The translations under genes were made by a program, and so were the position numbers. From Rhodamnia argentea (taxonomy: Eukaryota; Streptophyta; Magnoliopsida; Myrtales; Myrtaceae): 64,000 nt of DNA. This document shows positions 20,801 through 44,141 of this stretch, one piece after another (within the stretch, counting starts at the first letter, position 1; every line of letters starts with the position of its first letter). Below the pieces are notes generated by a model. The model was given only the letters and a program-made list of their open reading frames with translations, did not search any database and was not told where the DNA came from. The stretch covers positions 4,774,001 through 4,838,000 of the forward strand of contig NC_063151.1 of NCBI RefSeq assembly GCF_020921035.1, read 5' to 3'.

Positions 20801-21226
20801 CCTTGCGAAAACAAATCGCATTTTCAACAGAGACTCCGAGAGAACACACAAATAGAAACTGATTAAGACACATGAACGGGCAGAGAAACTAGTCCGCAGC
20901 TCACATCAACCTCACAAACACGAATCACAATCTCAACGAAAACTCCGAACGGAAACACAATCAAAAACTGATCGGAGCACGTAAATGGTCCCAGGGAGAG
21001 AGACCTGCGGAGCTTTCTCGACGAACTCTTGCACGTAATTTTCGCCGAAACAACGGTGACCCGCGTCGTAGACATCGCGAATAAGAGAGACCGGCTTGGT
21101 TTTCGAAACGGCCACGACGCGCACGTTCTCGGCACGCGCGCCGGATCGCTCGGCCGCTTGACGGACTCGGACCATGACGGAGCGGAGCGCCGCTACAGCG
21201 AAGCTCTCCACGGCGGGAGCGGCCAT
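17829..21226 (-). CDS. Pyridoxal phosphate homeostasis protein (YggS/PLPBP family)
   Basis: Seven exons on the minus strand: 21226-21005, 20679-20613, 20036-19990, 19644-19557, 18779-18646, 18379-18281, 17909-17829. All are GT-AG and in phase, giving 245 residues. The PLP lysine lies in AVSKTKP (K42). Other family landmarks are [48 protein letters not shown] and [10 protein letters not shown]. The protein is a fold-type III PLP-binding barrel with no known enzymatic activity that buffers cellular vitamin B6 and amino-acid pools. The Met at 21226 matches the family start; the frame is open further upstream to 21379 but that part is not conserved. Exon 1 lies in the 8.3 kb duplicated segment, and a dead copy of it lies at 29322-29543. 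Confidence 0.93.
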
Positions 21227-23981
21227 GAAACGCGAAGGTTCTCGGTCGTTGCAACTGCTCGGGATCGTGTCCCGCTCCTGTGATGCCGCTCGTTGCTTTA
21301 CTCGAGATTTTCCGATTTCGGGGGTAGAGAGGTAAACTCGAATATAGAAAAAGACAAGTGAGAAAATTTTTGCAGCCACATTTTTCTTGAGACTATAATA
21401 GTTGTACTAAAAAAACCGAGAAAATTTTATGCCTTGTTTTTTTTTTTGTCAGAAAATTTTGTGCTTTTAACATTCTAGCAAAGTGCGTTATTCAGTTTGT
21501 TATTTAGTGTTACAATTTCTTTTCATTTTTTTTGCATAAATTGGGCCGCCTAAATATTAACTCATTCGAGGCATTGTTAGTTTTACCTCATTCCATATCG
21601 AGATTTATGGTTTTGTCTATTGACATATATATAGAGAATTTTTTGAATGATTGCCCAAATTCAAGAGGCTCGGTTTGTGATTTTATTTCAGCTATACATA
21701 TATAATCCATTAATGCTCTTTTCATATTTAGAATGCAATTCGATTAATTTCTACCCTATGCTATTTTAGAAGCCTGTTGAGAGCCACACATTGTTCGGGC
21801 CCATTCGGCCGAACAATCAACCTCCACCGTTATCGGATGGGGTTGTCAATTGTCATATGAATGGTTATATGCGATCTTCAGCTGAGGCATCAAGCAAAAT
21901 AAATTATTTCATGAGCAAGACATGTCTACCGTGAATTTATCTAAACACTTGAACTCGGCAAGTCTCGAAATAAATATTTTGTGGAATTCCACATATTTAA
22001 ATAATCTAAAAACAGGTTGTGGCTCATATGAAGCTAAGAGCCTAAGGCTAGTTATCATACGATCTTTTTTTTTATTATAATATTATAAACACATGTATGG
22101 CCCTATTACTTTGGTGGCGTAGTGTCCATTGGCCTAACTTTGGTACGAACCAAAGTAATCTATGCATACACCAAAAGAGCTTAATCTTTCGTTGTATTTA
22201 CGGTTATAAATATACATACACAATTACACATATATGTCCTATTAACTCAACTTAATTTTATGCTTCGGACTTCATGCAACAAACTATTATCAAGTAAAAC
22301 GCCAACATATGAACGGAATTTCAAATTTCACGACATAATTATTTCGTTTTATTTTGGGTAGTCATGGTTCAGTTTCTTGATCCTCAGAGCAATGCACCAT
22401 CTTTCTTTCTTGAGGCACGATTTAGAGCAAGCATCAAGCTTATGTTTTCAAACGAGTCTTAAGGGAGAGTATAGCCAGCCGGTTCTTGTTCATGCACCGA
22501 TTCTTGAATCAAAACGTCAACTTCAGAAAAAGACAGCAGAGAGTAAAAGGAGGAAGAAGACAGGACAGAATCGAGCGGGAGATCTGCTACTCCTCCCCGC
22601 GTCCTCTCCCATCTGTTTCCTAACAGACCTCTAAACATATTCTGGGTTCTAACGAGCATTTCCTTTGACCTTTGTCTGCTGCTGAGGTTGAGAAACAAAT
22701 CTCTCGTTGCATGGCTTCTGTTTGAACCAAAGTCACGACCATTCACTACAAGTCAACCTTCTTCTTCTTCTTTTTTTTTTTTTTTTTGGGTCGAGAAGTC
22801 AACCTTCTTTTTTTTTTTTTGGGAGTCAAGAAGTCAACCTTCTTATGTGCCTACTTTCGCAGCGATCAATGGATATCGCCATCACCCACTTCTTATCCAC
22901 TCTGGTCTTTTTTCCCTTTCACGTACCATCTTGTCCATGAAGAACTGAAAAAGATTTTGACTTGCAGCATACGCATTGCATGCGAGCGCTTGCTTTCTCG
23001 GGGGATTGAATAACCGATGCTACGGATTTAATTACAACATGGTGGGGATGCTTTTAACAGATTTTTTCTAATGAATGGGATGTTTTTAAGGATCAACTGA
23101 GGTTTTCTTGTTGTGCTAATCTAGTGTTCGAGTCATTATACCTTGAGAGTACAGAAAGAGCATTCACCCTTGTAAGTCAACCCTCATCTTTAATTGGAAG
23201 GTCTATGACCTTCATTGTTTTTTTTTTTTTTTTTGGGTTGAAATCTTTCTATGAATTATTTTTGGAAAAAATGACAAAAATGGTCTTTAAACTTTGACCC
23301 AACGTGTAATGTGGTCCATGAAATTTTAGTTTGACCAATATGGTTGCTAAACTTTAGCCCGATGTACAAGACAATACATGAACTTTCAATTTGTTTAATG
23401 TGGTCCTGTACTTTTTGAACATGTTTAAATAAATCCTTGAACTATAAGAAAATGTCAAAGTCGTCCCTTAACTTGAATAAATGGAAGGACTACATTGAAC
23501 GTTTTCTTATAATTCGAGGATTAAGTTGAACATGTTTCAAAAGTTCAGGGACCACATTGCACATTGGGCTGAAGTTCGGGGACCATATTGGTCAAATTAA
23601 AAGTTAGAAATCATATTGCACATTGGTTCAAAGTTCGCAGATCATATTGGTCAAATTAAAAATTTAGGGACCACATTACACATTGGATTAAAGTTCATGG
23701 ATTATATTGATCAAATTAAAAGCTCAGGAGGTCAAAATTCAAGGACCATTCCTTATTTTTTTTAGTTGAATTTGGCCATATCCACTTAGCACCAAAATCT
23801 CAAAAGAGAGCACAGATGTGAGCTAATTTTGACAATCAGCTCAGGTATAAGTAAAATCCAACTTCTGTAGTCTCTACACATTCCTCATTCAGGCCATTTC
23901 TCAGTGACCATCACGTCTCCAGGCTCGATATTCACCCCAAAATCCTCCCATCTTCCCTCAACAATTACTCCCTCTTCAATC
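21227..23981. other. Intergenic part of unit A upstream of the STIG1-like pseudogene
   Basis: No gene is supported. It matches 29544-33500 in unit B apart from unit-specific insertions and a unit A-specific stretch near 22796-22965. Positions 23264-23750 hold a TIR-type repeat with internal short tandem motifs (GGTCCATGAACTTT-like), whose 3' end is truncated compared with unit B. Confidence 0.6.
23264..23750. repeat. GGTCC-AACTTT internally repeated element, unit A copy
   Basis: Consists of degenerate motifs of about 40-45 bases (GGTCCATGAACTTT..TTTGACCAATATGG) in both orientations. The unit B copy (about 32768-33270) retains matching ends ATGACACAAATGGTCC and GGATCATTTGTGTCAT; here the right end is lost. 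A third relative lies at about 44764-45174. Confidence 0.7.
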
Positions 23982-24545
23982 ATGAGGTCCCGCAAGATCA
24001 TATCCATTTTCATCATATTGATAGTGGCTATTACCCTCGTTACTGACACATCATCGCCCGAGAAGATGGGCTGCGATCCAGATTACGACCAAGCGCCCAG
24101 GGAGCATGAGTACGAGCCCAATGGCAAGCTCTTGCATCGCCTCGCCTCATCCCGTGACCCAACCCGGTTCCTCTCGCATTGAGGGACGCACGCCCGTCGG
24201 TCGACTTGCGACAAGTTTCCTAGGATATGTTGCGCTAAGGGAAGTCCCGGACGTAGTTGTTGCAAGAAGAGGTGCGTGGATCTGCTCGCCGACTGGCTCA
24301 ACTGTGGGATGTGTGGCAGGAAGTGCAAGTACAATGAGATCTGTTGCAAAGGGAAGTGTGTGAACCCGTCGTTCAATAGGAAGCATCGTGGGGGTTCTAA
24401 CAATGGGTGCAAGGAGGGCAACTTCTGTCTCTTGGGGCTCTGCAAATTATGTCTAGGACAGGAGGAGAAATCCAGAATGACGATTCCCATGGTCGGATAC
24501 CAATTGTTGTGGCCCTTGTATTCTAACCTCTTGACTATCGTTTAA
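23982..24545 (+). pseudogene. STIG1-like secreted Cys-rich protein, unit A, nonsense codon
   Basis: The frame from ATG at 23982 runs through a hydrophobic signal peptide (IISIFIILIVAITLV), an acidic spacer, an RFLSH motif and a STIG1-type Cys-rich domain (CCKKRCVD, NCGMCGRKCKY, ICCKGKCVN, CLLGLC). An in-frame TGA at 24180-24182 separates the RFLSH motif from the Cys domain; unit B has a sense codon there. One conserved Cys near 24392 is Arg (KHRGG), and one extra base near 24444 shifts the natural stop at 24454-24456 out of frame, so the frame runs on to 24545. STIG1-like proteins are extracellular and act in pistil secretions and pollen-tube signalling. Unless the stop is read through, this copy is dead. 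Confidence 0.82.
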
Positions 24546-25819
24546 TTCTAAAACATGATCGTATCATCGGATCATAACCTCTTCAGATTTAATCCAAATA
24601 CGGTGTTTTTTGAAACCTAGGCTCAACCCATTTATTAATCTGGTGTATAAACCTGCAAAAAGTGTATTTAAACATCTGTCAAAGTGTCGGCGCTCTCCAA
24701 TAGACTTGCAACTTCTCCTTCGATAAGATGACTTCAACTTGCCTTGCGGGTTGGGAGTTGAGTCAAGATCGATCAAGGGGAACAACTTGCTTTGCCTTGG
24801 ATTGGTACTGATATTTTTACAAGGGGAGCAACATTAATAAAAACGCTTGTCTAAAAATGCTTTGATTTAATAAAGAGCTTGTCAAATAAAAGTTATTAGC
24901 TCGACAGTCTTACAAGAGTGTTAGTTACTTTTTATCATATGATCTCTCAATAAACGAGTGCTTTATGTAAAACATGCAGTGATAGTGTGGATTTATGGTT
25001 GAAATTGTACCGTCTTTGATAGTTCTGTCGGAAAAACATTTTCTAATGTATTACGGATATAATGGCGTGGATTAGGCAAAGAAAAAGACGCAGGGTCTGG
25101 TTGGATTCCATGTTTTTTGCTAGGGTACAGTAGATTTAGGACAGCGGTGCACTAACAAGTCAAAGTCAAGTCTTCTGGAAACGACGTGGCTGGGGTCCCG
25201 GAGTATTTGGATTTTCTTGATTGTCTTGGTGGGATTACTCGTGCGAGGAAAATCCTTCCTTGGTCCCAGATTTAACGAGATGTCTGTTCTAGTTCTAACA
25301 GGAACTCTCCAATGCATGTTTTCCCCCAAAAAAGGGTAGGCAACAAGACATTCTCGAACAAAACAAAGAGGCCCGACACTTTTTTCTCATCTTAAAGGGA
25401 AGGGATTCACCCAATCTTTGCCATACTTCTTCAGTAGAATTATTTGGGACGGGAATGTACTTCACACGACATTTTTCTGTTCCACTTTGACTTATGTTCT
25501 CCATCAAAGACAATGAATAATAGCTACGTGAACGGGAAGTTGGAAAAGATATTTGTAGAGGTTTATGGCATGGGATTTTTTTTTTTTTTTTTTTGGTCTT
25601 TTGCTTCTTCTTTTTAAGCATACTGCATAGTGCATGACAGATCCCATTACTAAAAATAAAATAAAATAACGGATATATAATTGCAACAAGAAACAAGAAG
25701 AGAAGACATTAGAAACAAGCCTTCATAAGGGAAATTACATTTTAAGATGTTCTAGTTACATCTTTATTCATTGAAATTACATTCCACGGTCGAAAGAGAC
25801 AACTCCTCAAACAATTTCA
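24546..25819. other. Intergenic, unit A
   Basis: No gene is supported. It is co-linear with 33932-35314 in unit B. The last 100 bases before 25820 probably include the 3' UTR of the minus-strand LRR gene. Confidence 0.5.
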
Positions 25820-28740
25820 TTATCCATGAAACTTGATGACCTTCTGCTTTGGCTTCTCCATGCACTTAATTGCTCTTCTCTCCAGCATTCTCACAACTTG
25901 CGCGAGCCATTTGGGCCTTCCTGTTTCAAATGTAATGTACGCTATGGAAATCCCAATTACGATTCCAGTTGCATAACCTACCCACAATACATTCTGTTCG
26001 ATCCAGTTCTCATACCCTTTCCGGTTGATACTTGGTGGAGGAGGGTGAGCATCGTCGAGGCATGCTTTAGGCAACGGAGTTCCACATAATCCTGGATTCC
26101 CACCAAATGAGTCGCTTGAAAATGTGCTCGAATGCTTATCTTGAGGAATTGGACCGATGAGTTGGTTCTTCGAGAGGTTTAAGTACCCAAGGGATGCCAA
26201 ATCTCCCAATTTCCTGGAAATTACACCACCAAGCTTGTTCGAAGAAAGATCAAGCCATTCAAGATTGGTCAAATTCCATAGACTATCGGGGATGGAACCA
26301 AGAAGGTGATTATGAGAAAGGTTGAGCCCTATGAGAGAGTGAAGATGTCCAATAACTCTTGGGATATCCCCTTCAAAAGAATTGTGCGACAAGTCAATGA
26401 TTGTGAAGACGGTCAAGGAGACCAGTAGCTGAATCTGCCCCTTTATGCTCACGGTGACTGAATTTTCATATCCTACCACCCTTCGAAAAAATTGTGTCAT
26501 ATACAATGAATTGCTTTGGTCATTTTCGCTATTCATCATGGCTTCAAGGTGCATTATCAAATTGGATGGCAAAGGACCGCCAAAGTTGTTGTCGGATAGG
26601 TCCAAAATGCGCAGCTTGGAGAAGCGGTGAGCTCCCTTGGGTAAATCCAAATTATCCTTGAAATTGTTGGATCTCAAAACGAGAACTTTTAGTTCTGGGA
26701 GTGTACCCAACCATCCTGGGAACCCATCCTCTATGCGATTGTTACCGAGATCCAGAATTTCCAAATAATCACATCTGATGAGGGACCGGGGCAATGTGCC
26801 TTCCAACCGATTTTGACTCAAGTCAAGAGTCGCCAAGCTATTTCTCCAAGAAAATGATTGAGGAATTGTGCCCTCAAGGCGATTCATTCGCAAGTTCAAA
26901 ATTGACAGATCGATGCTGAAATTTGTTAAGCACCGAGGCAAGCTACCAGTTAAGCTGTTATTTGACAAGTCGAGGTGCTCGAGCTTGCTGGCATCGCATA
27001 TCAAAGAAGGGATCTTTCCCGTAAAATTATTGCCAGCAATGCAATAAAAAAACGTGAAGGGAGATGGAAGTGGAATTGGCCCTCCAAACTCGTTGTAGGA
27101 CAACTCTAACACAGCCAATGAGGTGTTTGAGAAAACCTCTGTGGGCCACTGTCCAGTGAAACTGTTGTGGGAAATAAATAAGTACTCAAGAGCAGGGAAG
27201 ATGAGTCCAAAGGTAGTGAGATTGATAATACCATAAAATCTGTTGGCACTTAGATCAAGGGCATATAGTCGCGCTGCTTGCAGCCAATGTGGGAATATAT
27301 CAGCGAACTCATTGTAACTGAGAAGTAGTACCGATATGTTCACGCACTTGACTAGGGAGCGCGGTAACAGGCCTTGTAACTTATTGCCGCTTAGGTATAG
27401 ATAAACGAGATTGGTCATATTACCGACACATGGTGGCATCTTCCCAGAGAGACTGTTATTACCCAAGCTCAGATACCGAAGCGAACTCAACTGGCAAATC
27501 GAAGAAGGAATCTCCTCACTAATCCTGTTGGACGAGAGGTCCAAGCGTATCAATCTTTTTAACGAGCTCAGGAAAGAGGGGAACTTGGTCAAGTTGCAAG
27601 AAGACAACCCCAACACTTCGAGCAGCGGGAATGTATACTCCAGGGTGTTATAGGTTAGATTTAGCTCTAGGGAAACATTAAGCATTCGGAGATTTTTAAG
27701 CTTTGTGAAGTTTTCGAAATCTACGACCCCGCTGAAGTTATTCCCGGCTAGATATAGGATTTGTAGTTGCTTGAGATTCCACAGCGTTGGGGGGATGTGT
27801 CACGTGAATCTGCAACCACTAAGACCTAAAACTGTCAATCTCTTCATGTCACCAATTGAACCGGGTATTTCTCCTGAAAAGTTCGTACCGTCGAGAGACA
27901 AGTACGCAAGAGGACCGGTCCAATTGGATTTGGGAAGACTCCCGGACATGCGGGGATTGAAACGTGCAGAGAGAATAGCAAGGCTAGGAAATCCGAAAAC
28001 AATATCTGGAAACATTCCCCCTAAGGAACAGGCAGAAACTCTTAAATGTGTCAAAGAAGAAGACAAATTGGCGAAGGAGATGGGTGAAACCATAGACATG
28101 TCTACTGCATCAAGACCAAGCTTTCTCACTGCCGTTAGATTCTGAACAAGCATGGCGAAGACCGAATTCTCCAAAACAAGAGAAGAGAATGAGTTCGATT
28201 CATCGTAGTTGTAAGAGAGATCAAGTGACACAAGCTTGGATAGGCAAGCGATTTCAGGGGGAATGGCACCGAAAAAGTGCGAACGAGAGAGATTCAGGTA
28301 AGTCATTTGTACAAATACGCTCAGATTAGGCGAAATTCGTGTGCCAGCGAAGTCATTACCAGAAAGGTTGAGGCTCCGGAGCTGGCGAAGGAGGAGGGAG
28401 CTATTGGGACGGAGAGCGCCGCGAAGCCAACTGCAAGCACGATCGAGACCGACGACGTCGCCGGTGGTGCCGTCGCAGGCGACGCCGTCCCAGTAGCAGC
28501 AGTCGACGGCCACGTTCCACGCGTTCGTCTTCGGATAAGACGTGACGGGGTAATACAAATCGTCGCAACTGAAGCGGGACGCCATGGGATCAAGCACGAA
28601 GGAGTTCTTGAAAAGGAGCAAGGCATCGCGGTGGTCGGGAGGGCAAAGTGGGGAGGCAAAGGGGGGGATGGATGCAAGAAGAAGAGGAAACGGAGGAGGC
28701 CGAGGATTTGATGCCACCCCATTTTTTGCAGCTTTAACAC
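25820..28740 (-). pseudogene. LRR receptor-like protein (RLP, Cf-9/RLP7 type), unit A, two lesions
   Basis: A single long frame on the minus strand (28717-25820) encodes the LRR N-terminal cap with paired Cys (NVAVDCCYWDGVACDG), over 20 extracellular LRRs of the LxxLxLxxNxxxGxIP type, an island region, a membrane span (LWVGYATGIVIGISIAYITF) and a short basic tail without a kinase. RLPs of this kind pair with SOBIR1-type co-receptors in immunity. Two breaks are visible. The signal peptide that starts at 28740 in the unit B frame is shifted by a missing base in a G run near 28660-28666. An in-frame TGA at 27800-27802 (codon 306 from 28717) interrupts the LRRs. An alternative Met at 28717 gives a hydrophobic N-terminus, so secretion of a truncated product is possible. 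Confidence 0.88.
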
Positions 28741-29197
28741 GCGAGCGAGTTAAGCGGGGGGGAAGAGAGCTTCAATTTATACTAAGTTGAGTCTTGCAAT
28801 AAAGCCAGGCTATCGGCACAAGTCTTCTTCTTGAAAGGCCTGTGGACGGGCTCACCATAGCTTTCCAACTTCTTCTCCTCCCATCGTGTCCGAGATAGGA
28901 CTGCCGACATCTGCTTGCATTGCGGGTCATGGGGCAGCTTGCATTCCGTTTGACACGAGTCTTCTAATAAGCCAGGTTAGCCTCCCAACGTCTCCGATAA
29001 GACTGCCAACATCTACTTGCCTTGCAGGTTGGGGAATACTTGCATCGCCCATCCCATCAATAGGATATTCAGGCTTTCTATATCTTGCGAAAAATAGGTA
29101 ATTTAAAGAAAATATTTTTCATAAGATAAATGCGTGTACCGCTTACAAAAATGGATAATTCATTTTCCACGAAAATGTTTGGACATAGAATGTCGTT
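28741..29197. other. 5' flank of the unit A LRR gene
   Basis: No gene is seen. The stretch matches 43462-44141 in unit B except for a 220 bp insertion there. It ends at the junction with unit B. Confidence 0.6.
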
Positions 29198-29321
29198 CAG
29201 AGAAACTAGTTCGCAGCTCATATCAACCTCTCAAACACGAATCACAATCTCAACAAAAACTCCGAACGGAAACACAATAAAAAACTGATCGGAGCACATA
29301 AATGATCCCAGGGAGAGAGAA

Positions 29322-29543
29322 CTGCGGAGGTTTCTCGACGAACTCTTGGACGTAATTTTTGCCGAAACAACGGCGACCCGCGTCATAGACATCGCGAATC
29401 AGAGAGACGGGCTTGGTTTTCGAAATGGCCACGGCGCGCACATTCTCGGCACTCGCGCCGGATCGCTCGGCCGCTTGACGGACTGGGACCATGACGGAGC
29501 GGAGCACCGCTACAGCGAAGCTCTCCACGGCGGGAGCGGCCAT
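29322..29543 (-). pseudogene. Orphan exon 1 of the PLP homeostasis gene, unit B
   Basis: A 222 bp copy of PLPBP exon 1 remains open from ATG at 29543, with changes such as FGENY to FGKNY and KAPQ to KPPQ. The donor site is lost: the exon is followed by TT instead of GT (29321-29320). No downstream exons follow, because the duplication breakpoint cut within intron 1. It may still drive transcription from the copied promoter. Confidence 0.9.
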
Positions 29544-30429
29544 GAAACGCGATGGTTCTCGGTGGTTGCAACTACTCGGGATCGTGTCCCGCTCCTGTTA
29601 TGCCGCTCGTTGCTTTTCTCGAGATTTTCCGATTTCGGGGGTAGAGAGGTGAACTCGAATATAGAAAAAGACAAGTGAGAACATTTTTGCAGCCACATTT
29701 TTCTCGTGACTATAATAGTTGTAGTAAAAAAACCGAGAAAATTTTATGCCATTTCTTTTTTTGGTCAGAAAATTTTATGCTTTCAACAGACTGGCAAAGT
29801 GCGTTATTCAGTTTGTTATTTAGTGTTACAATTTCTTTTCTTTTCTTTTTTCCATAAATTGGACTGCCTAAATATTAACTCATTGGAGGCATTGTTAGTT
29901 TTACCTCGTTCCATATCGAGACTACGGTTTCGTCTATTGACATGTACATATAGAGAATTTTTCGAATGATTCCCCAAATCCAAGAGGCTCAGTTTGTGAT
30001 GTTATTTCAGCTATACATATATAATCTATTAATACTCTTTTCATATTTAGACTGCAATTCGATTAATTTCTGCCCCTTTGCTATTGTAGATGCCTGGTGG
30101 GAGCCACTCATTGTTCGGGCCCATTTGGCCCGACAATCATTCTCCACCATTATCGGGTTGGGTTGTCATATGAATGATTATATGTGATCTTTGGCCGAAG
30201 GCATTAAACAAAGTTATTTCATGAACAAGGCATGTTTATCGTGAATTTATCTAAACACTTGAACTTAGCAAGTCTTGAAATAAATATTTTGTGGAATCCC
30301 ACATATTTAAATAATATACAAACAGGTTGTGGCGCATATGATGCTAAGAGCCGAAGGCCAGTTATTTTATCAACTTTTTTTGTTGTAATTTTATAAATAC
30401 ATGTACGGTCCTATTACTTTTGATGGAGC

Positions 30430-31225
30430 AGGCGCGCATGGCAAGACTTCTGCTTCGTAAATCAACTACTGGTTATAAGTTAAAATTTTCACTTCTACTC
30501 AGAAGCAGAAGTTGATTTTTGTATTTCTGCTTCAGAAGTTAATTTCTAATCGGAGAAATTCATTTGGTAATAGTTGAAAATTTTTACTTCTGGAATATTA
30601 TTAACACAAAATCTTCTACAATGAATTATTATCGATAGTTGAAAAATTTATACTTCATTTTTAATTTTTTAAAAAAATAAAGAATTATTATTTATTTTTT
30701 ACTCCGGTGGCCGAAGATGGCAACTTAGTAGCGGTGGGTGGAGATCGGTGGCGGTGGTTGGTGGTGGGAAGTGATTGGCGTGGGGAGGTGGTTGGTTGTG
30801 GCTGGAGGTCGTAGGCAATGCTTGGTGGTCAACACGGGGCCAATGGTTGGTGGCGGCCGACGAAGGTCGAGAGGGCAACCGGCCGAGGGAGGGGGGTAGT
30901 CGACGGTGGTGGGCGGCGGGCGACAAGCAAGGGTGGCGGGCGGCGATGAGTGATGGCCGGCAACGGCGGGCGATGGCGGTTGGCGACGGGGAATGCGTGA
31001 ATGAGCGAGAGAGGCGTAATGAAAAGAGGGTGAGGCGAGAAGTATTTCTTGAGTTGAGAATCAATTTTTTTCAGCTTCTCAATTTGGGGAAAAAATAACT
31101 TCAGAAGTACAAATTTCTTTCAGAAGTAAAAATTTTTACGAAACGAATTTTTGCTTTAGAAGTTGCATTATCAAGCGGATTTTTCTAGAGCAGAAATTCA
31201 TTTTCAGAAGTGTTGCCATGCGTAC
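30430..31225. mobile_element. hAT-like non-autonomous element, unit B only
   Basis: Absent from unit A, where CTATTACTTTGGTGGCGTAGTGTCC is continuous (about 22104). The ends are inverted repeats: GCATGGCAAGACTTCTG near 30436 and its complement in CAGAAGTGTTGCCATGC near 31206-31221. The middle (30700-31000) is strikingly GC- and GGT-rich while the flanks are AT-rich. The class is inferred from the size and ends; the target duplication could not be resolved because both flanks have diverged. Confidence 0.6.
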
Positions 31226-32133
31226 TAGTGTCCATTGGCCTAACTTTGGCATGAACCAAGGTATCTATCCATACACCAAAAGTGCTTAATCTTTCATTCT
31301 ATTTACGGTTATAAATATACATACACAATTACACATGTGGCCTATTAACTCAACTTAATTTTATGCTTTGGACTTCATACAACAAGCTATTATCAAGTAA
31401 AAACCTGGTATATGAACTAAATTTCCAATTTCACGACACGATTATTTCGTTTGTTTTGGGTAGTCTTGGTTCAGTGTCCTGATCCTCCGAGCAATGCACC
31501 ATCTTTCTTTCTTTAGGCACGATTTAGAGCAAGCATCAATCCAATCTTTTCAAACGAGTCTTAACCGGGGAGTCCTCTTCTTCTTCTTGTTCATGAATAT
31601 AGCCAGCCGGTTCTTGTTCATGCACCCATTCTTGAATCAAAAGGTCAACTTCTGAGAAAGACAGCAGAGAGGAAAAGAAAGAAGAAGACAGGACAGATCA
31701 AAAGGGAGATCTGCTACTCCTCCCCGCGTCCCGTCCCATCTGTTTACTAACAGGCCTATACATATTCTGGGTTCTAACGAGCATTTCCTTGGACCTTTGT
31801 CTGCTGCTGAGGTTGAGAATCAAATCTCTCATTGCATGGCTTCTGTCTGAACCGAAGTCACGACCATTCACTACAAGTCAACTTTTTTTTTTTTTGGAGC
31901 CGGGGAGGGGGGTCTTGGTTGTTGGGTCGATTAACTTGCAGCATATGTATTACATGCGAGCGCCTGCTTTCTTGGGGGATTGAATAACCGATGCTACATA
32001 TTGATTACAACATGGTGGGGATGCTTTTAACATATTTTTTCTAATGAATGGGATGTTTTTAAGGATCATCTGGGGTTTTCTCATTGTGCTTATCTAGTGC
32101 TTATCTAGTGTTCGAGTCATTATACCTTGAGGC

Positions 32134-32650
32134 TGCGTTTGGTCATCGGGATTTCTGGTTAGGATAGGATTGGATATGATAGGATAAGAAATCTAGGGAT
32201 TTAGCCATATCATATCCATCATTTGGTGAACTACGGATTTAAAGTCGGATATTCTCATATCCTATCCTATCCCGTATTTGGTAGAAACTGTATATCAATA
32301 TAAAGAACATATATGCCCTACGTGATGCTCATGAAATATTCTGATCTTATTACTATAAAAATAATATTCTCATACACAAAAAAAAAAACTTGAAAATATA
32401 CACATTTTATTAGATTTTCAAACCTCTTTGCAAAATAAATAAATAAAATGAAAATAAAAACAAATGTGACAAGAAAGTTAGCTTTTATATGACGGATAAG
32501 AGAAATCCTATCCGACCTTATCTTACCCCCTTCCTTAGGATTTTTTTATCCGGGTTATATCCCCCCTATATCCGACATTATACTATCCGGGACACCTACC
32601 AAACACGGGATAAGATAAAACATATCCTATCCCGAGTTTTATACGGACGA
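32134..32650. mobile_element. About 515 bp insertion, unit B only
   Basis: Unit A reads CCTTGAGAGTACAGAAAGAG without interruption (about 23142); unit B has CCTTGAG then GCTGCGTTTGGTCATCGGG... and resumes at AGTATAGAAAGAG. The insert contains several inverted GGATAGGATAT / ATATCCTATCC motifs, giving a fold-back structure typical of MITEs. Exact ends and target duplication are unclear. Confidence 0.55.
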
Positions 32651-32767
32651 CTAGTATAGAAAGAGCATTGATCACAGTTGTAAGTCGACTCTCATCTTTA
32701 ATTGGAAGGTCTATGACCTTCATTCTTTTTTTTTGTTGTTGATATCTTTCTATGAATTATTTTTGAA

Positions 32768-33270
32768 AAAAATGACACAAATGGTCCATAAACTTTGACC
32801 AAACTTGCAATTTGGTCTCTGACTTTTTAATTTGACCAATATGTTTCCTAAACTTTAGTACAATGTACAATATAATCTATAAACTTTCAATTTTTTTGAT
32901 GTGGTCATGTGTTTTTTAAACATGTTCAACTAAGTTCCTGAACTATAAAAAAATGTCAGAGTCATCATTGAACTTGAATTAATGGAAGAACTGTATTGAA
33001 CATCTTTCTATAATTCATGGACTAAATTTCAAAAGTACAGGAATCGCATTATACATTAGGCTAAATCTCAGAGATTATATTGGCAAATTAAAAGTTAGGA
33101 ATCACATTGCACATTGGTTCAAAGTTTTAAGACCATAATGGTCAAATTAAAAATTCAGGGACCATATTGCATATTGGATCAAAGTTCATGGATTACATTA
33201 GTCAAATTAAAAGTGCAGAGATCACACTACACATGAGGTTAAAATTCAAGGATCATTTGTGTCATTATTC
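32768..33270. repeat. TIR-type element with internal short repeats, unit B copy
   Basis: The ends are inverted: ATGACACAAATGGTCCATAA at about 32772 and GGATCATTTGTGTCAT at about 33251-33266. The interior is a chain of degenerate motifs of about 40 bases. The same family occurs at 23264-23750 and 44764-45174. Confidence 0.65.
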
Positions 33271-33500
33271 CTCATTTTTTATAGTTGAATTTGGCCCAAT
33301 CCACTTACCACCGAAATCTGAAAAGAGAGCACAGATGTGAGCTAATTTTGACGATCAGCGCAGGTATAAATAACATCCTACTTCTGTAGTCTCTTCACAT
33401 TCCTCATTCAGGCCATTTCTCCGTGGCCATCGCATCTCCAGGCTCGATATTCACCCCAAAATCCACCCATCTTCCCTCAACAATTACTCCCTCTTCAACC

Positions 33501-33931
33501 ATGAGGTCCCGTAAGATCATATCCATTTTTATCTTAGCGACAGTGGCTATTACCCTCGTTACTGACGCATCCCGGGGAGCACGAGTACGAGCCCAATGGT
33601 GAGCTCTCCCATCGCCTCGCCTCATCCCGTGACCCAATCCGGTTCGTCTCGCATAAAGGGACGCATGCCTGTCGCTTGACTTGCAACAAGTTTCCTAGGA
33701 TATGTCGCGCTAAGGGAAGTCCTGGACACATAGTTGTTGCAAGAAGAGGTGCGTCGATCTGCTTGCCGACCGGCTCAACTGTGGGATGTGTGATAGGAAG
33801 TGCAAGCACAATGAGATCTGTTGCAAAGGGAAGTGTGTGAACCCGTCGTTCAATAGGAAGCATTGTGGGGTTGTAACAATGGGTGCAACGAGGGCAACTT
33901 CTGTCTCTTGGGGCTCTGCCATTATGTCTAG
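33501..33931 (+). pseudogene. STIG1-like pseudogene, unit B, frameshifted
   Basis: This is the homologue of the unit A gene, starting at ATG 33501. A net deletion of about 44 bases after the signal peptide (near 33565-33575) shifts the frame to a TGA at 33600-33602. Two extra bases near 33727 and one missing base near 33873 shift it again. The Cys domain and a stop in the expected place (TAG 33929-33931) are still recognisable. At the position of the unit A nonsense codon this copy has AAA. Confidence 0.85.
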
Positions 33932-35314
33932 GACAGGAGGAGAAATCCAGAGAGAGGATTCACATGGTCGGATACCAATTGTTGAGGCCCTTGTATTCTA
34001 ACCTCTAGAGTATCGTTTAATTCTTAAACATGATCGTTGCAAAGTTTCTTGGCAACAGAGCTAACAATTCGTATCATTCGGATCATAGCCTCTTCAGATT
34101 TAATCCAAATACGGTATTTTTTGAAACCTAGGCGCAATCCATTTATTAATCTCGTGTATAAACGTGTAGGAAGTGTATTTAAACATCTGTCAATATGTTG
34201 TTGGGCTCCAATAGACTTCCAACTTCTCCTTCGATAAGATGACTTCAACTTGCCTTGCGGGTTGGGAGTTGAGTCAATATCGATCAAGGGGAGCAACTTG
34301 CTTCGCCTTGGATTGTTACTGATATTTTACAAGGGGAGCAAAACGCTTGTCTAAACATACTTTGATTTAATAAAGAGCTTGTCAAATGAAAGTTACTAAC
34401 CCGACAATCTCATAATAGTGTCAGTTATTTTTTACTACAAGATCTCTCAATCGATGAATATTTTATATAAAATATGCTGTAATTGTGTGAATTTAAAGTT
34501 GAAATTGTACCGTTTTTTATAGTACTGTCAGAAAAATAGTTTTCAACATTTCACGGACATAATGGCGAGGGTTAGGCAAAGAAAAAGACACGGGGTCTGG
34601 CTGGAATCTATGTGTTTTGCTTGGGCACAGTAGATTTAGGACAGCGGTGCACTAACAAGTCAAAGTCTTCTGGAAACGACATGGCTGGGGTCCCGGAGTA
34701 TTTGGATTTTCTTGATTGTCTTGGTGGGATGACTCGTGCGTGGAAAATTCTTCCTTGGTCCCAGATTTGACTAGATGTCTGTTCTGGTTCTAACAGCAAC
34801 TCTCCAATGCATGTTTTCCCTAAAAAAAAAGGCTAGACAACAAGACATTCTCGAACAAAACAAAGAGGCCCGTCACTGTTTTTTTCATCTTGAAGAGAAG
34901 GGATTCATTCAATCTTTGCCATACTTCTTCAGTAGAATTATTTGGAACGAGAATATGCTGTGAATATTTCACACGACATTTTTCGGTTCCACTTTGACTT
35001 ATGTTCTCCATCAACGACCATGAATAATAGCTACGTGAACGGGAAGTTGGAAAAGATATTTGTAGAGGTTTATGGCATGGGATTCATTTTTTTTTGGGGG
35101 GGGGGGCTTTTGCTTCTTCTTTTTAAGCTTTGTGCTTGACAGATACCGTTACTAAAAAAAAAATTAATGGATATATAATTGCAACAAGAAACAAGAAGAG
35201 AAGACATTCGAAAGAAGCCTTCATAAGGGAAATTACATTTTAAACTAGTCTAGTTACATCTTTATTCATTGAAATTACATTCCACGGTTGAAAGGGACAA
35301 CTCTTCAAACAATT
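33932..35314. other. Intergenic, unit B
   Basis: Co-linear with 24546-25819 in unit A. No gene is supported. Confidence 0.5.
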
Positions 35315-37748
35315 TCATTGTCCATGAAACTTGATGGCCTTCTGCTTTGGCTTCTCCATCCACTCAGTTGCTCTTCTCTCCAGCATTCTCACACGTCGCG
35401 CGAGCCATTTGGGCCTTCCTGTTTCAAATGTAATGTACGCTATGGAAATCCCAATTACAATTCCAGTTGCATAACCTACCCACAATACATTCTGTTCGAT
35501 CCAGTTCTCATACCCTTTCCGGTTGATACTTGGTGGAGGAGGGTGAGCATCGTCAAGGCATGCTTTAGGCAACGGAGTTCCACATAATCCTGGATTCCCA
35601 CCAAATGAGTCGCTTGAAAATGTGCTCGAATGCTTATCTTGAGGAATTCGACCAGTGAGTTGGTTCTTCGAGAGGTTTAAGTACCCAAGGGATGCCAAAT
35701 CTCCCAATTTCCTAGAAATTACACCACCAAGCTTGTTCGAAGAAAGATCAAGCCATTCAAGATTGGTCAAATTCCATAGACTATCGGGGATGGAACCAGT
35801 AAGGTGATTATGAGAAAGGTTGAGCCCTATGAGAGAGTGAAGATGTCCAATAACTCCTGGGATATCCCCTTCAAAAGAATTGTGCGACAAGTCAATGATT
35901 GTGAAGACGGTCAAGGAGACCAGTAGCTGAATCTGCCCCTTTATGCTTATGATGACTGAATTTTCATATCCTACCACCCTTCCGAAAAACCGTGTCATAT
36001 ACAATGAATTGCTTTGGTCATTTTCGCTATTCATCATGGCTTCAAGGTGCATTATCAAATTGGATGGCAAAGGACCGCCAAAGTTGTTGTCGGATAGGTC
36101 CAAAATGCGCAACTTGGAGAAGAGGTGAGCTCCCATAGGTAAATCCAAATTATCCTTGAAATTGTTGGATCTCAAAACGAGAACTTTTAGTTCTGGGAGT
36201 GTACCCAACCATCCTGGGAATCCATCCTCTATGCGATTGTTACCGAGATCCAGAATTTCCAAATAATCACATCTGATGAGGGACCGGGGCAATGTGCCTT
36301 CCAACCGATTTTGACTCAAGTCAAGAGTCGCCAAGCTATTTCTCCAAGAAAATGATTGAGGAATTGTGCCCTCAAGGCGATTCATTCGCAAGTTGAAAAT
36401 TGACAGATCGATGCTGAAATTTGTTAAGCACCGAGGCATGCTACCAGTTAAGCTGTTATTTGACAAGTCGAGGTGCTCGAGCTTGCTGGCATCGCATATC
36501 AAAGAAGGGATCTTTCCCGTAAAATTATTGCCAGCAATGCAATAAAAAAACGTGAAGGGAGATGGAAGTGGAATTGGTCCTCCAAACTCGTTGTAAGACA
36601 AGTCTAACGCAGCCAATGAGGTGTTTGAGAAAACCTCTGTGGGCCACTGTCCAGTAAAACTGTTGTAGGAAATAAGTAAGTACTCAAGAGCAGGGAAGAC
36701 GAGTCCAAAGGCAGTGAGGTTGATACTACCATAAAATCTGTTGACACGTAGATCAAGGGCATATAGTCGTGGTGCTTCCAGCCAATGTGGGAATATATCA
36801 GCGAACTTATTGTAACCGAGAAATAGTACCGATAAGTTCACACACTTGACTAGGGAGCGCGGTAACGGCCCTTGTAACTTATTGCCGCTCAAGTATAGAT
36901 AAACGAGATTGGTCATATTACCAACACATGGTGGCATATTCCCAGAGAGATTGTTATTACCCAAGCTCAGATACTGAAGCGAACTCGACTGGCAAATCGA
37001 AGAAGGAATCTCCTCACTAATCCTATTGAAAGTGAGGTCCAAGCGTATCAATCTTTTTAACGAACTCAAGAAAGGGGGGAACTTGGTCAAGTTGCAAGAA
37101 GGCAACCCCAACACTTCGAGCATCGGGAATGTATACTCCAGGGTGTCGTGGGTTAGATTTAGCTCTAGGGAAACATTAAGCATTTGGAGACTTTTAAACT
37201 TTGTGAAGTTTTCGAAATCTACGACCCCGCTAAAGTTATTCCCGGCTAGATATAAAATTTGGAGTTGCTCGAGATTCCACAGTGATGAGGGGATGTGTCC
37301 TGTGAATCTGCAATCACTAAGAACTAAAACCGTCAACCTCTTCATGTTGCCGATTGAACCGGGTATTTCTCCTGAAAAGCTTGTACCTTCAAGAGACAAG
37401 TACGCAAGAGGACCGGTCCAATTGGATTTGGGAAGACTCCCGGACATGAGGGGATTGGAATTTGCAAAGAGAATAGTAAAGCTAGGAAGTCGGAAAACAA
37501 TATCTGGAAACCTTCCCCTTAAGGAACAGGCAGAAACTCTTAAACGTGTCAAAGAAGAAGACAAATTTGCGAAGGAGATGGGTGAAACCATGGACATGTC
37601 TACTGCATCAAGACAAAGCTTTCTCACTGCCGTTAGATTCTGAACAAGCATGGTGAAGACCGAATTCTCCAACACAAGAGAAGAGAATGAGTTCGATTCA
37701 TCGTAGTTGTAAGAGAGATCAAGTGACACAAGCTTGGAGAGGCGAGTG

Positions 37749-38166
37749 TATTGAAGATATCACCGCCTACTCTAGAATTCAATAACGTGACTCTTCGATA
37801 GATTTTTCGGTTTCCGATGGACATCTATCGACGCGCGTGTTTAGTGTTATTATTGTTTTGTAGTTCTTTTAGAGTCATCATTGTTGTGTGTCTCGAGAGT
37901 CCTTTAGTATTCCGATGTGTAATTATTGCTATGTATCCGGACGGGTCTTTTCATGTACCTAGGGCATGTCGGGAGTCATGTTGTACGCCTATATAAAGGC
38001 GAGTCCCGTAATTGTTTCGTTAAGGTGAAAATAAGGTAAATATAGAAAATTGTTGAGTCCATCTCCTCTCTTGAAAGCTTCTCTCGTGTGAAGAGAACCT
38101 TTCACCTTCGATAGTCTTCGATCATCTTGAGGATCGAGACGTGCTTCGCAACTACGAGGTTCAACA
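37749..38166 (+). repeat. 5' LTR of the copia element
   Basis: 418 bp, starting TATTGAAGATATC and ending GAGGTTCAACA. The TATA box lies at 37990-37998. Confidence 0.95.
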
Positions 38167-38358
38167 TTTGGTATCGGAGCGCGGTTATCGGGGACCGTGA
38201 ATCAAGTCTTCCGGAGCGTGGTTCGTGAAGACGGTGGTTAGCGACCATTATTCGTGTGTAAGCGGTCAAGGACCGGAGTACGTCGAAGCTCTGCGGGAGT
38301 ACAGTCGGGGATCGTGATCAATTGGTTGGGACCAAGCCGGGCATTTTTCTCCAATCGG

Positions 38359-41300
38359 ATGGCGGACGTATCAAGTTCGATGAATGGTATTGAGAAGCTC
38401 AACAATTCCAATTATAATAATTGGAGTACCCGCATGCAGTTTTATTTGCGGGGTCAAGATTTGTGGGATATTGTTGGCGGCAGCAACACCACGGCACCCA
38501 CAAACGATGGTGATCTGAGGAGATGGAACATCAAAGCGGGTAAGGCTCTTTACGCTCTTCTTGTGACTGTTGAAGATGACTTGTTGCAGCATATAAAGAG
38601 TGCGGAGACTCCCAAGGAGGCATGGGATAACTTGGCAGCGTTGTTCGCGAGGTCGAATGATGCCAAGTTGCAAAGATTGGAGAACGAGCTGCTGTCGATG
38701 TCACAACAAAATATGACGGTGAGTCAGTATTTCTCCAAAGTTAAGTCTATTTGTGACGAAATTTCGAAGCTAGATCCGAATAATGCCATCTCTGAAACAA
38801 GAATGAGAAGGATTATTATTCACGGGTTAAAGCCGGAGTATAATGGTATTGTTACGGCTACTCGTGGATGGGCAACTCAACCAACATTGATCGAACTAGA
38901 GAATATTTTGGCCAACCAAGAAACTTTAGATAATCAAATGTCTAAGGTTTCGATGAAGGGAGATGAGAGTGCCCTCTACAGTGATAAAAGAGGGTTCAAG
39001 GGCCAGAGGAGAATCGGTGCTAACAATAGAGATGACAAGCCGGGAAAAAGTCATGTCGAAAGGCAAAAGCAGCCAGCTCGTGGAGAATGGAAAAAGCGTC
39101 CTGGAGAGACGAGCTTTCGATCAGGGGGATCTTGGCGGAATTGTTATGGGAATGACAAAAGGCGTAGTGGACGATGTTACGTCCGTGGCAAAGAAGGTCA
39201 TTGTGCCAGAGATTGTCGAACAAAGAGAGTTGAAGGAAATGTCGCAGCTTCATCGAAGAGGAGTGATTTCGATGACAATGTGGAATGGGACTTTCATGCA
39301 TCTGTTGCAACGGAGGTACAAGACGAGCTCGTTGCCTCGTCCATTGCCGAGTTGAACCATTCGATGGCTTTAATCACTGTAAGTGATAAGTCGATTAATT
39401 ATGATGTTGACTGGATTGTTGATTCGGGGTGTTCGAATCACATGACCGGAGATCAAGGCAAGCTGTCGAATACGCTGGATTATACCGGTGGACGTGTAGT
39501 GATTACTGCGGATGGCTCGAGGTTGCCAATTTCCCATATTGGTGAGACGGTGATAACTCCTCGACTCAATTCACAGCAAGTTGAATTGAAAAATGTGTAT
39601 CACGTGCCGGGGATGAAGAAAAATTTATTGTCCGTGTCCCGACTCACGGACTCGGGTAATTATGTTATATTCGGTCCACGAGATGTTAAGGTGTACCGAA
39701 GTGTGAAGCCCACTAGTCGACCAATCATGGAGGGACGTCGACTCGAGTCCGTTTATGTGATGTCTGCTCAAACGGCATACGTAAACAAAACTCGGAGAAA
39801 TGATACACCTGATTTGTGGCATGCACGGCTTGGGCATGTAAGTTATCACAAGTTGAAAGTGATAATGCAGAAGAATATGCTGAAGGGCCTCCCCCAGTTG
39901 GAAGTTCAAGAAGATGTGGTTTGTGCCGGATGCCAGTATGGAAAGGCACATCAGCTTCCTTACGAGGAATCATCGTTCAAAGCTCGTACGCCTCTTGAGC
40001 TCATTCACTCGGATGTGTTTGGTCCAGTGAAGCAATCGTCTATTGGTGGATCAAAGTATATGATCACATTTATCGACGACTTCTCCAGGTATGTTTGGGT
40101 TGATTTTATGAAAGATAAATCTGAGGCATTTATCAAATTTAAGGAGTTTAAGGAGAAGATAGAAAGTGAAGTGGGCAAGAAGATTCTTTGCCTTCGTAGC
40201 GATAACGGGGGAGAATATACTTCTAATGAATTCACGAAGTATTTGCAAAAGTGCAAGATACGTCGACAGTTTTCTTGTCCGTATACGCCACAACAAAATG
40301 GAGTTGCCGAAAGGAAGAATCGACATCTAGTAGAGACATGTAGGAGCATGCTACATGCGAAGAATGTTCCACCAAGATTTTGGGCTGAGTGTATGAAGAC
40401 AACGGCTCATGTGATTAACAGATTACCACAAGTAAGGCTTGGTTCTATGTCACCATACGAGAGGTTATGGAACCGCAAGCCGGTGGTAAGTCATTTCAGA
40501 GTTTTTGGATGTGTATGTTATGCATTTGTGCCAGAACACCTTCGCAGCAAATTCGACAAGAAGGCGGTTCGATGTATTTTCGTGGGTTATGATGATCAAC
40601 GAAAAGGGTGGAAGTGCTGTGATCCTACAACAGGGAGGTGCTATATTTCGAGGAATGTGGTGTTCGACGAATTGTCGTCATGGTGGTCATCTCAAGCTGT
40701 CGAATTGCCGGATTCACAGCATATCGAAGAAGAGTTTCAAGAAAGGCTGAGAGAATTCGATGAGGATCAGCCTATCGAAAAAGATGTCGAAAAGGATGTC
40801 GAAGCACAATCACAAGGATCGACAAGTTCATCCGGTGAGCATCGAATAGTAACGGAAGAATTTCGACCAAGTCGGGTAGAGGAACCTGAAGGAAAGGAGC
40901 CTCGACTTCGAAGATCACGGAGGGAGAGGAGGCCAAACCCCAAGTATGCCAATGCGGCGTTGATCGAAGATGTTGGTGCAGTGGAGCCGTCGACATATGA
41001 GGATGCATCGAAGGATGCAGAGTGGAGAGAGGCCATGGAGGAAGAGATCCTCGCACTAAAAAAGAATGAGACGTGGGACTTGGTGTCGAAACCTGAAGAG
41101 GTACGTCCTATATCTTGCAAATGGGTTTATAAATTGAAAACTCGACCGGATGGGTCGATAGAGAGATATAAAGCACGTCTAGTTGCTCGAGGTTTTTCGC
41201 AAAAGTATGGCGTCGATTATGAAGAAACCTTCAGCCCAGTGGCCAAAGTTACTACTGTTCGAGTTTCGTTAGCACTTACAGCAAGCAAGTCGTGGAATCT

Positions 41301-42534
41301 ATGGCGGATGGATGTGAAGAATGCCTTTCTTCATGGAGAGCTTGATCGAGAAATATACATGGAGCAGCCGGATGGTTTCAAGAGCAAAAATCATCCAGAA
41401 TATGTCCGCAAGCTAAAGAAAGCCTTGTATGGCTTGAAGCAAGCCCCGAGAGCATGGTATGGGAAGATCGCAGAATTCTTATTGAGAAGCGGTTATTCTG
41501 TAGCCCCAGCAGATTCGAGCTTGTTCGTGAAGGCGGAAGATGGAAAGATAGCAACTGTGCTGGTGTATGTGGATGATCTCATCATTCTTGGAGATGATGA
41601 AGATGAGATATGTCGAATTAGAGCAAATCTCTCGGTCCGTTTTCGGATGAAGGAGCTTGGAGAGCTGAAGCACTTTTCGGGACTCGAGATTGATCGGACA
41701 AAGGAAGGATTATTCCTATGTCAACGGAAGTATGCACGAGATCTCTTGGAGAAGTTCGGGATGCTCGATTGCAAGCCTATATCTACTCCGTTGGATGGAA
41801 ATGCAAAGCCGTGTGCTGATGAAGGTCGAGAGTTAGAAGATTCGACCACATACGGGCAACTGGTAGGTAGTCTAATTTACCTTACCATAACTAGACCTGA
41901 TATTGCTTTTGCAGTGGGAGTAGTAAGTCGATTTATGGAGAAGCCACGGAAGCCTCACTTGGATGCAGCCAAGCGTATCCCGAGGTATGTAAAGAAGACG
42001 TTTGATTTTGGCCTTTTGTACAAGAAAATCTCATCGAGTGAGTTGGTCGGTTATTGCGATGCCGACTTTGCTGGAGATCAATACACAAGGCGCTCGACTA
42101 CGGGATACTCATTTAATCTTGGATCGGCGGTAGTATCTTGGTGCAGTAAAAGACAGCCGATCGTGTCTCTGTCGACAACAGAAGCTGAATACTGAGCAGC
42201 AGCAATGGCAGCTCGGGAGAGTACGTAGCTAGTGCAATTATTGGATGATCTTCATCAATCGATAGATTATTCGACAACGTTGTTTTGTGATAATCTATCT
42301 GCTATAAGCTTGGCAGAAAATCCAGTTTTTCATGCTAGAACAAAGCATGTGGAAGTACACCATCATTTTCTGCGAGAAAAGGTCTTGCAGGGCGAGATCA
42401 AAATGGAGTACACCAAGACAGGTGATCAAGTTGCTGATATCTTCACCAAAGGTCTTGGAGCAGCAAAGTTCGATGAGTTTAGAACTCAGCTTGGTATGGT
42501 CACGAGATCTGTCCTAAGAGAGAGTAGTCGGTGA
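38359..42534 (+). pseudogene. Copia gag-pol polyprotein with two stop codons in RNase H
   Basis: One frame, in order: gag (UBN2-type), a zinc-knuckle region, aspartic protease (DWIVDSGCSNHM), GAG-pre-integrase (LWHARLGHVSYHKL), integrase core with its DDE residues (FIDDFSRYVW, RSDNGGEY, QQNGVAERKNR), reverse transcriptase (YVDDLIILG) and RNase H. The order protease-integrase-RT-RNase H is diagnostic for Ty1/copia. The start at 38359 (MADVSSS) is the likely gag start; the frame is open from 38254. The zinc knuckle reads CYVRGKEGHCARDC, so the second Cys of the CX2CX4HX4C pattern is Arg. In-frame TGA (42193-42195) and TAG (42226-42228) interrupt RNase H. With near-identical LTRs, this is either a very recently damaged copy or one mobilised in trans. 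Confidence 0.93.
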
Positions 42535-42541
42535 GGGGGAG

Positions 42542-42959
42542 TATTGAAGATATCACCGCCTACTCTAGAATTCAATAACGTGACTCTTCGATAGATTTTT
42601 CGGTTTCCGATGGACATCTATCGACGCGCGTGTTTAGTGTTATTATTGTTTTGTAGTTCTTTTAGAGTCATCATTGTTGTGTGTCTCGAGAGTCCTTTAG
42701 TATTCCGATGTGTAATTATTGCTATGTATCCGGACGGGTCTTTTCATGTACCTAGGGCATGTCGGGAGTCATGTTGTACGCCTATATAAAGGCGAGTCCC
42801 GTAATTGTTTCGTTAAGGTGAAAATAAGGTAAATATAGAAAATTGTTGAGTCCATCTCCTCTCTTGAAAGCTTCTCTCGTGTGAAGAGAACCTTTCACCT
42901 TCGATAGTCTTCGATCATCTTGAGGATCGAGACGTGCTTCGCAACTCCGAGGTTCAACA
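42542..42959 (+). repeat. 3' LTR of the copia element
   Basis: 418 bp, one substitution from the 5' LTR, directly preceded by a polypurine tract. Confidence 0.95.
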
Positions 42960-43461
42960 GAGTGATTTCAAGGGGAACGGCACCGAAAAAGTGCGAACGA
43001 GAGAGATTCAGCTAAGTCATTTGTGCAAATACGCTCAGATTAGGCGAAATTCGCGAGCCGGCAAAGTCATTACCGGAAAGGTTGAGGCTCCGGAGCTGGC
43101 GAAGGAGAAGGAGGGAGCTATTGGGACGGAGAGCGCCGCGTAGCCAACTGCAAGCAAGATCGAGACCGATGACGTCACCGGTGGCGGCGTCGCAGGCGAC
43201 GCCATCCCAGGAGCAGCAGTTGACGGCCACATTCCACGCGTTTGTCTTCGGATAAGACGTGACGGGGTAATACAAATCCTCGTCGCAACTGAAGCGGGAC
43301 GCCATGGGATCAAGCACGAAGGAGTTCTTGAAAAGGAGCAAGGCATTGCGCTGGTCGGGAGGGCAAAGTGGGGAGGCAAAGGGGAGGGATGGATGCAAGA
43401 AGAAGAGGAAACAGAGGAGGCCGAGGATTTGATGCCACCCCATTTTTTGCAGCTTTAACAC

Positions 43462-43766
43462 GCGAGCGAGTTAAGCGGCGGGGGAAGAGAGCTTCAATTT
43501 ATACTAAGTGGAGTCTTGCAATAAAGCCAGGCTATCGGCACAAGTCTTCTCCTTGAAAGGTCTGTCGACGGGCTCACCAGAGCTTTCCAACTTCTTCTCC
43601 TCCCATCGTGTCCGAGACAAGACTGTCGACATCTGCTTGCATTGCGGGTCATGGGGCAGCTTGCATTCCGTTCGACAGAGTCTTCTAATAAGCCAGGTTA
43701 GCCTCCGAACGTCTCCGATAAGACTGCCAACATCTACTTGCCTTGCAAGTAGGGGAATACTTGCAT
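43462..43766. other. 5' flank of the unit B LRR gene
   Basis: Corresponds to 28741-29046 in unit A. No gene is seen. Confidence 0.5.
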
Positions 43767-43986
43767 ATGTAAGGGAATCAATTTAAAATTCAAATTGTCC
43801 TCCGTAATTTCAGGCTTTCTCATTATTGTTAATAGCTATCAATTAGTGGAGATTTTCTAGCTGTCAATTAGTGGGATTTTCTCCATATCTTTTAGTTGTT
43901 GCCATGCTTATATATGTACTATAAATATCGTAGAAATACAGCAATGAAAGTTATCCTGGAAAACATTCTCTCAATCTCTCTCTTTA
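43767..43986 (+). mobile_element. 220 bp solo-LTR-like insertion, unit B only
   Basis: Flanked by GCAT at 43763-43766 and 43987-43990; unit A has a single GCAT at the same point (ACTTGCATCGCCC, about 29040-29052). It begins ATGTAAGGGAATC and contains TATATATG and CTATAAATA boxes followed by a CT-rich end (CTCAATCTCTCTCTTTA), like a small LTR. No internal region is present. Confidence 0.6.
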
Positions 43987-44141
43987 GCATCGCCCATCCC
44001 ATCAATAGGATATTCAGGCTTTCTGTATTTCGCAAAAAATAGATAATTTTAAAAAATATATTTTTCGTAAGATGAACGTGTGTATCACTTACAAAAATGG
44101 ATAATTCATTTTCCACGAAAATGTTTGGACATAGAATGTCG

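Follow-up and report, generated by a model that had tools for sequence, protein, structure and literature searches.

Why should a tandem duplication end with every gene that it wholly included dead in both copies? The question is raised by a 64,000-nucleotide stretch of the Rhodamnia argentea genome (C2:4774001-4838000, hereafter the window), which holds two adjacent copies of one segment, units A and B. Each carries a STIG1-like gene and a gene for a leucine-rich repeat receptor-like protein (LRR-RLP, or RLP), and both genes are broken in A and in B, as an earlier interpretation made from the letters of this DNA (the sequence-only reading) had claimed. The deaths of these two passenger genes appear to be staggered, with the RLP pair going late, a distinction absent from that reading. 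We consider it likely that one tandem duplication was followed by early decay of the STIG1 pair, by constraint on the RLPs and conversion between them, and by a late loss of both RLPs that was tolerated because of redundancy in their family.

Aligning the window with itself by BLAST gave a single same-strand diagonal, running from 20881/29198 to 29195/44141 and interrupted solely by insertions and deletions. Its pieces are 82.6-94.4% identical between the units, and global alignment counted 641 mismatches in 8,049 aligned columns (8.0%). Together with a reading of the junction, these alignments place unit A at 20881..29195 (8.3 kb) and unit B at 29198..44141 (14.9 kb, including a copia-type element and other insertions). 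In searches of the whole assembly (346.7 Mb, 74 contigs), a query of the unit's first 2.1 kb gave 6 matches, only 2 of which, of 43 and 119 bases, lie outside A and B, so the duplicated unit is not a dispersed repeat. The copies are adjacent and similarly oriented, the diagonal is continuous and the flanks are single-copy. The self-alignment that the sequence-only reading had named as its check thus bears out its claim of a direct tandem segmental duplication.

Unit A ends in GGACATAGAATGTCG at 29181-29195, and two filler bases, TT (29196..29197, read by eye and supported by self-BLAST), precede unit B. The breakpoints proposed earlier therefore stand at the start (20881/29198) and at the end (44141), but GGACATAGAATGTCG had been placed at 29183-29197. 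We found no homology between the end of the left flank and the end of the unit in 40 bases on each side compared by eye, and self-BLAST at E 1e-10 gave no repeat pair joining flank and unit end. With such ends, unequal crossing-over between flanking repeats is not favored as the origin; the lack of end homology and the 2-bp filler make end joining or replication slippage likelier. In our model, an 8.3-kb segment reaching from intron 1 of a pyridoxal phosphate (PLP)-homeostasis gene to a point right of the LRR-RLP was duplicated head to tail.

The RLP pseudogene of unit A occupies 25820..28722 on the minus strand, as defined by Pfam matches, the A/B alignment and frame reading. On the same strand, RLP-B is split into a 5' part (42965..43443; N-terminus, LRRNT and first LRRs) and an open 3' part (35315..37743; most of the LRR domain, a hydrophobic stretch and the tail). 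Both belong to a family with an LRRNT and many LRRs (PF08263, PF00560 and PF13855 above cut-off), and no kinase family is among the Pfam matches of the window pieces. By eye, the RLPs have signal-peptide-like and transmembrane-like stretches, and the frames of RLP-A, RLP-B and four open paralogs described below stop shortly after the hydrophobic stretch, leaving a short tail. The 3' part of RLP-B matches PDB 7drb (E 4.1e-86, best stretch query 379-727), which we take to be NbRXEG1. The likeness is that of a membrane-localized LRR receptor-like protein, although 7drb is an intact receptor; two matches that score above it are LRR kinases (GSO1 and FLS2), since shared LRRs dominate the comparison.

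All four RLP lesions of the sequence-only reading were seen again in the assembled sequence. In RLP-A, one nucleotide is missing from a run of seven C (28661-28667) in the signal-peptide region and there is a TGA at 27800-27802; RLP-B is broken by a TAG at 43012-43014 and by the copia-type element at 37749-42959. These lesions were read from the assembly and not from reads, and of the four, the deletion in the seven-C run is the one for which a sequencing error is hardest to dismiss. That the two units carry different lesions also holds, as we found no shared breaking lesion in either the RLP or the STIG1 pair. What RLP-A and RLP-B do have in common, relative to the four open paralogs, is an in-frame deletion of ~69 codons in the LRR domain, between NRIS and EEIPSS. 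We read this deletion as predating the duplication, and it does not itself break the frame.

We dated the duplication by two measures. Non-coding divergence between A and B is 0.108 (447 of 4,439 columns), which is close to the synonymous divergence (Ks) of 0.112 in the first part of the RLP gene, so both date the same event. Substitution rates of 7e-9 to 1.3e-8 per site per year would put it at ~4-8 million years ago. Had both RLP copies been neutral since then, 34.6 lesions would be expected, and we counted 3: two stops against 9.9 expected and one frame-breaking indel against 24.7. The count excludes the copia insertion and a premature stop in the last codon of RLP-A before its end. Also uncounted is an extra 1-nt gap in RLP-B, which we read as an artefact of cutting at the copia target duplication, where one base had been omitted; the gap is absent when the parts are aligned separately.

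The ratio of nonsynonymous to synonymous divergence (Ka/Ks) tells the same story. For RLP-A against RLP-B it is 0.50 over the 951 codons (of 1,096 columns) of a six-sequence comparison, and it is 0.43-0.51 in all six pairs of the four open paralogs. Taken alone, the A/B pair gives 0.51 (0.37-0.74) over 961 of 969 codons, four with gaps and four with a stop having been dropped. Polarized with the paralogs, the ratio is 0.63 on branch A and 0.40 on branch B, in counts that skip 23 ambiguous codons. From stops and frameshifts together, the fraction of each RLP's history spent neutrally is estimated at 0.10-0.16 (medians), with upper limits of 0.32-0.42. Because Ka/Ks resembles that of open paralogs and lesions are few, both RLPs were probably constrained for most of their time; that is, they probably worked under ordinary RLP constraint and died late. 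In this late loss each copy would have acquired a stop, RLP-B also a young copia insertion and RLP-A perhaps the frameshift.

The element in RLP-B is a long terminal repeat (LTR) retrotransposon on the plus strand, opposite in orientation to the gene that it interrupts, and it is delimited by paired LTRs (37749-38166 and 42542-42959) and by a 5-bp target duplication, GAGTG, at 37744-37748 and 42960-42964. It contains a 1,317-codon frame, and we presume it to be of the copia type. Its LTRs differ at 1 of 418 positions, for an insertion age of ~0.1-0.2 million years (limits 0.002-0.95) at the rates above. The 5' LTR has 40 scored matches in the genome, including the window's two. A pair of LTR-sized matches 4.8 kb apart on another contig (C10:22245215-22250422) is 100% identical after rounding, so the family has probably been active recently.

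Although Ks in the first part of the RLP gene agrees with the non-coding divergence, the 3' part does not. The Ks comparison between RLP-A and RLP-B, which had been suggested as a check, gave 0.112 up to codon 530 of 951 and 0.038 beyond it, so that the 3' value is 0.34 times the 5' value. This 3'/5' ratio was 0.74-1.10 when RLP-A or RLP-B was paired with a paralog (eight pairs) and 1.14-1.64 in the six paralog pairs. At the nucleotide level, a tract of low divergence at 25900..27079, in the 3' half of the RLP, has mismatches in 23 of 1,180 columns. Neither 1,000 shuffles across the unit nor 2,000 confined to the RLP produced a score as high. The tract is most simply explained by probable gene conversion between the units once they had been duplicated, an exchange of the RLP 3' halves that would have preceded the late loss.

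The STIG1 pair suggests a different history. STIG1-A (23982..24470, plus strand; PF04885, E 2.4e-23) and STIG1-B (33501..33950 with an approximate end, plus strand; PF04885, E 1.5e-17) both match the STIG1 family, from which they differ in that both are broken. STIG1-A has a TGA at 24180-24182 and a 1-nt insertion near the C-terminus, and it lacks two conserved cysteines that are kept in STIG1-B and in three open relatives on C3. STIG1-B has three frame-breaking indels (44-nt, 2-nt and 1-nt), one of which lies in a G run; the 44-nt indel is placed in STIG1-B because STIG1-A reads in one frame across it. The TGA in A and the frameshifts in B had been seen before, and the C-terminal insertion and the lost cysteines are additions. 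The five lesions (one stop and four frame-breaking indels) compare with ~5.7 expected under neutrality (1.6 and 4.0), the expected stops being computed with a rate borrowed from the RLP. The Ka/Ks of the pair, 0.54 over 144 of 163 codons, has limits (0.26-1.33) so wide that it contributes little. By their lesion count, the STIG1 genes probably decayed early, as if free since about the duplication. The pair may soon have been released from constraint, decaying at roughly the neutral pace, and STIG1 genes at other loci may have covered for it. The relaxed selection that the sequence-only reading had suggested for the locus therefore fits STIG1, but not most of the RLP history, with its Ka/Ks of 0.50 and 3 lesions against ~35.

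If both RLPs were useful for so long, how could both be lost? Four open RLP frames of 1,044-1,089 codons lie on the same strand at C2:4669985-4728444, 46-104 kb left of the window edge, and are the nearest relatives among the matches listed, with ~77-80% DNA identity over long matches. One of them (C2:4696144-4699410) has an extra LRR stretch of ~41-45 codons that resembles a copy of neighboring repeats. The RLP query had 173 genome matches, and among those listed no other copy exceeded 72% protein identity. A functional allele elsewhere in the assembly, the other explanation offered earlier, is thus not supported for the RLP, and what exists instead is a set of open paralogs. Also among the listed matches, 7 of 16 other RLP loci at C2:4.10-4.73 Mb, by our own grouping of rows, have a stop inside the matched stretch; the locus near 4371003, counted among these seven, contains a long open frame as well, and its stop may be an alignment effect.

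The three open relatives of STIG1, with identities of 57-64%, are found at C3:4414966-4430750, near a paralogous PLP exon at C3:4403611; no RLP match falls at this locus among the matches listed. The arrangement of PLP and STIG1-like genes in the block C3:4403611-4430750 suggests an older duplicated counterpart of the window locus. Within the window, a further STIG1-like gene at 51967..52434 on the minus strand is open (PF04885, E 3.8e-25) and distant, with 38% identity to STIG1-A.

That both copies are dead is correct, but the premise that made it notable, that A or B had to survive, is weakened by the open paralogs. The earlier surprise arose because A and B were treated as the only copies. 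The RLP pair forms a minor branch of a larger family in which other RLPs are open, which may be why its loss was tolerated, and losing both members of one young pair in such a family fits ordinary birth-and-death turnover.

Could the pattern be explained otherwise? An error of assembly or sequencing, whether a false tandem duplication or false indels, would have some purchase on the RLP-A lesion in its seven-C run and on the STIG1-B indel in a G run. We reject a duplication made by the assembler, however, because the units differ by ~10% in non-coding sequence and have insertions of their own, while the flanks are single-copy and the junction is unique; stops and a copia insertion, for their part, are not homopolymer errors; we regard this explanation as very improbable. 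A segment that was already dead or relaxed when it duplicated, with both copies drifting since, would account for the death of both genes in both units, for the nearly full neutral lesion load of the STIG1 pair and for the ~69-codon deletion that RLP-A and RLP-B share. Yet that deletion is in frame, no shared breaking lesion was found, and the RLP lesion count and Ka/Ks, alone or on common codons, lead us to reject an RLP that died before the duplication. For the segment as a whole we consider early death improbable, if somewhat less so than an artefact.

Other alternatives accept the late loss and differ over what it means. The assembled chromosome could carry a null haplotype, with intact alleles of RLP-A, RLP-B or both still segregating, which would add to our account and is compatible with it. 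Few lesions on otherwise constrained frames and the near-identical copia LTRs are what such a haplotype would show, and gain, loss and copy-number variation are documented at an RLP locus (PMC9718524). No second haplotype is visible here, however, no other copy among the listed matches exceeding 72% protein identity, and we consider this possibility less likely than not. It is unlikely, though less so than death before the duplication, that the locus records a recent selective reversal, in which two adjacent immune-type receptors were kept, homogenized and then recently inactivated independently, because a ligand was lost or activity became costly, possibly with intact haplotypes segregating. 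Lastly, the dead pair might be regulatory, for example as an antisense or small-RNA source that tunes the open paralogs. Its DNA identity to those paralogs over the gene and the oppositely oriented element inside RLP-B are circumstantial points in favor of this idea, but past coding function explains the constraint pattern, and we think a regulatory role highly unlikely.

Several observations weigh against our preferred sequence of duplication, early STIG1 decay, RLP constraint and conversion, and late RLP loss. Early STIG1 death is argued from lesion counts alone, with the borrowed stop rate. For the RLPs, conversion wipes out older lesions and makes the pair appear younger, and the neutral indel rate comes from partly low-complexity flanks and is probably too high for this gene. 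Stops by themselves bound the neutral fraction per copy poorly (median 0.33, up to 0.89), and Ka/Ks is higher on branch A than on branch B, a difference that is not significant (Fisher P 0.24). Conversion itself has to contend with nonsynonymous divergence, which likewise drops in the 3' part in 14 of 14 pairs that involve a paralog (ratios of 0.57-0.98, against 0.38 for A/B). The single-base lesions are known from the assembled sequence. As for redundancy, the paralogs are known as open frames, and the C2/C3 synteny involves two gene types; an exon of Rcd1, the gene left of PLP, found only itself in a genome search and so lends that block no support.

The PLP-homeostasis gene (17829..21226, minus strand) has an open seven-exon model whose 245-aa translation contains no internal stop and matches the PLP-binding Ala_racemase_N domain (PF01168, E 3.9e-16), as a small single-domain protein that we take to be of the YggS/PROSC type; single PLP exons gave no match in a Pfam search. 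Its exon 1 lies in unit A and its other exons in the left flank, since the left breakpoint falls inside intron 1. The A/B comparison places an orphan exon 1 in unit B (29322..29543, minus strand), with TT in place of the GT donor of A. The units therefore contain PLP exon 1, a STIG1-like gene and an LRR-RLP, as first described, but the PLP gene is clipped and not wholly included, and its seven-exon copy is open.

Unit B is longer than A because of the copia-type element and three segments of >200 bp, besides smaller gaps. These segments, present in B only, are one of ~800 bp (30421..31225) with a near-terminal inverted match of 17 of 18 bases, one of 521 bp (32132..32652) and one of ~224 bp (43763..43986) with GCAT at both edges. 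Conversely, a 127-bp segment of A is missing from B. The most diverged part of the unit contains a 60-bp tandem repeat that is present in both (23539-23721 and 33068-33212) in different copy numbers. Outside the duplication, self-BLAST found diverged direct repeats of 74-88% identity clustered at 12283-17789, parts of which are copied again at 58831-60034, and two frames to the right (56889-57365 and 57512-57967) match cytochrome P450 (PF00067).

Read this way, the locus would be a clean example of receptor-gene turnover, with one duplication, two passengers, and apparent death schedules that lesion counts and Ka/Ks make legible. Should intact alleles prove to be still segregating, the reasons for which a plant gives up a functional receptor could be studied here. 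Our findings fit two published accounts. At the legume INR locus, tandem RLP genes have been gained and lost, with lineage-specific copy number; the receptor and its tandem relative both seem to have been lost from one species, RLP genes and fragments are interspersed with transposable elements, and tandem loci are said to lose functions via conversion or reciprocal loss (PMC9718524). The RLP pair here, by contrast, is known from its sequence and not by a ligand or a function; a STIG1 gene was carried along, and one genome is the source for our proposed order, with conversion preceding a late loss. A comparison of five plant genomes found pseudogenes of the tandem and proximal classes in excess over functional loci (for tandem ones, except in Vitis vinifera); tandem pseudogenes retain flanking homology, and LRR domains are among those over-represented in parental loci (PMC7935947). 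While that work compares pseudogene and functional complements genome-wide, our case is a single young pair of which neither member survives intact, with older paralogs as its open relatives.

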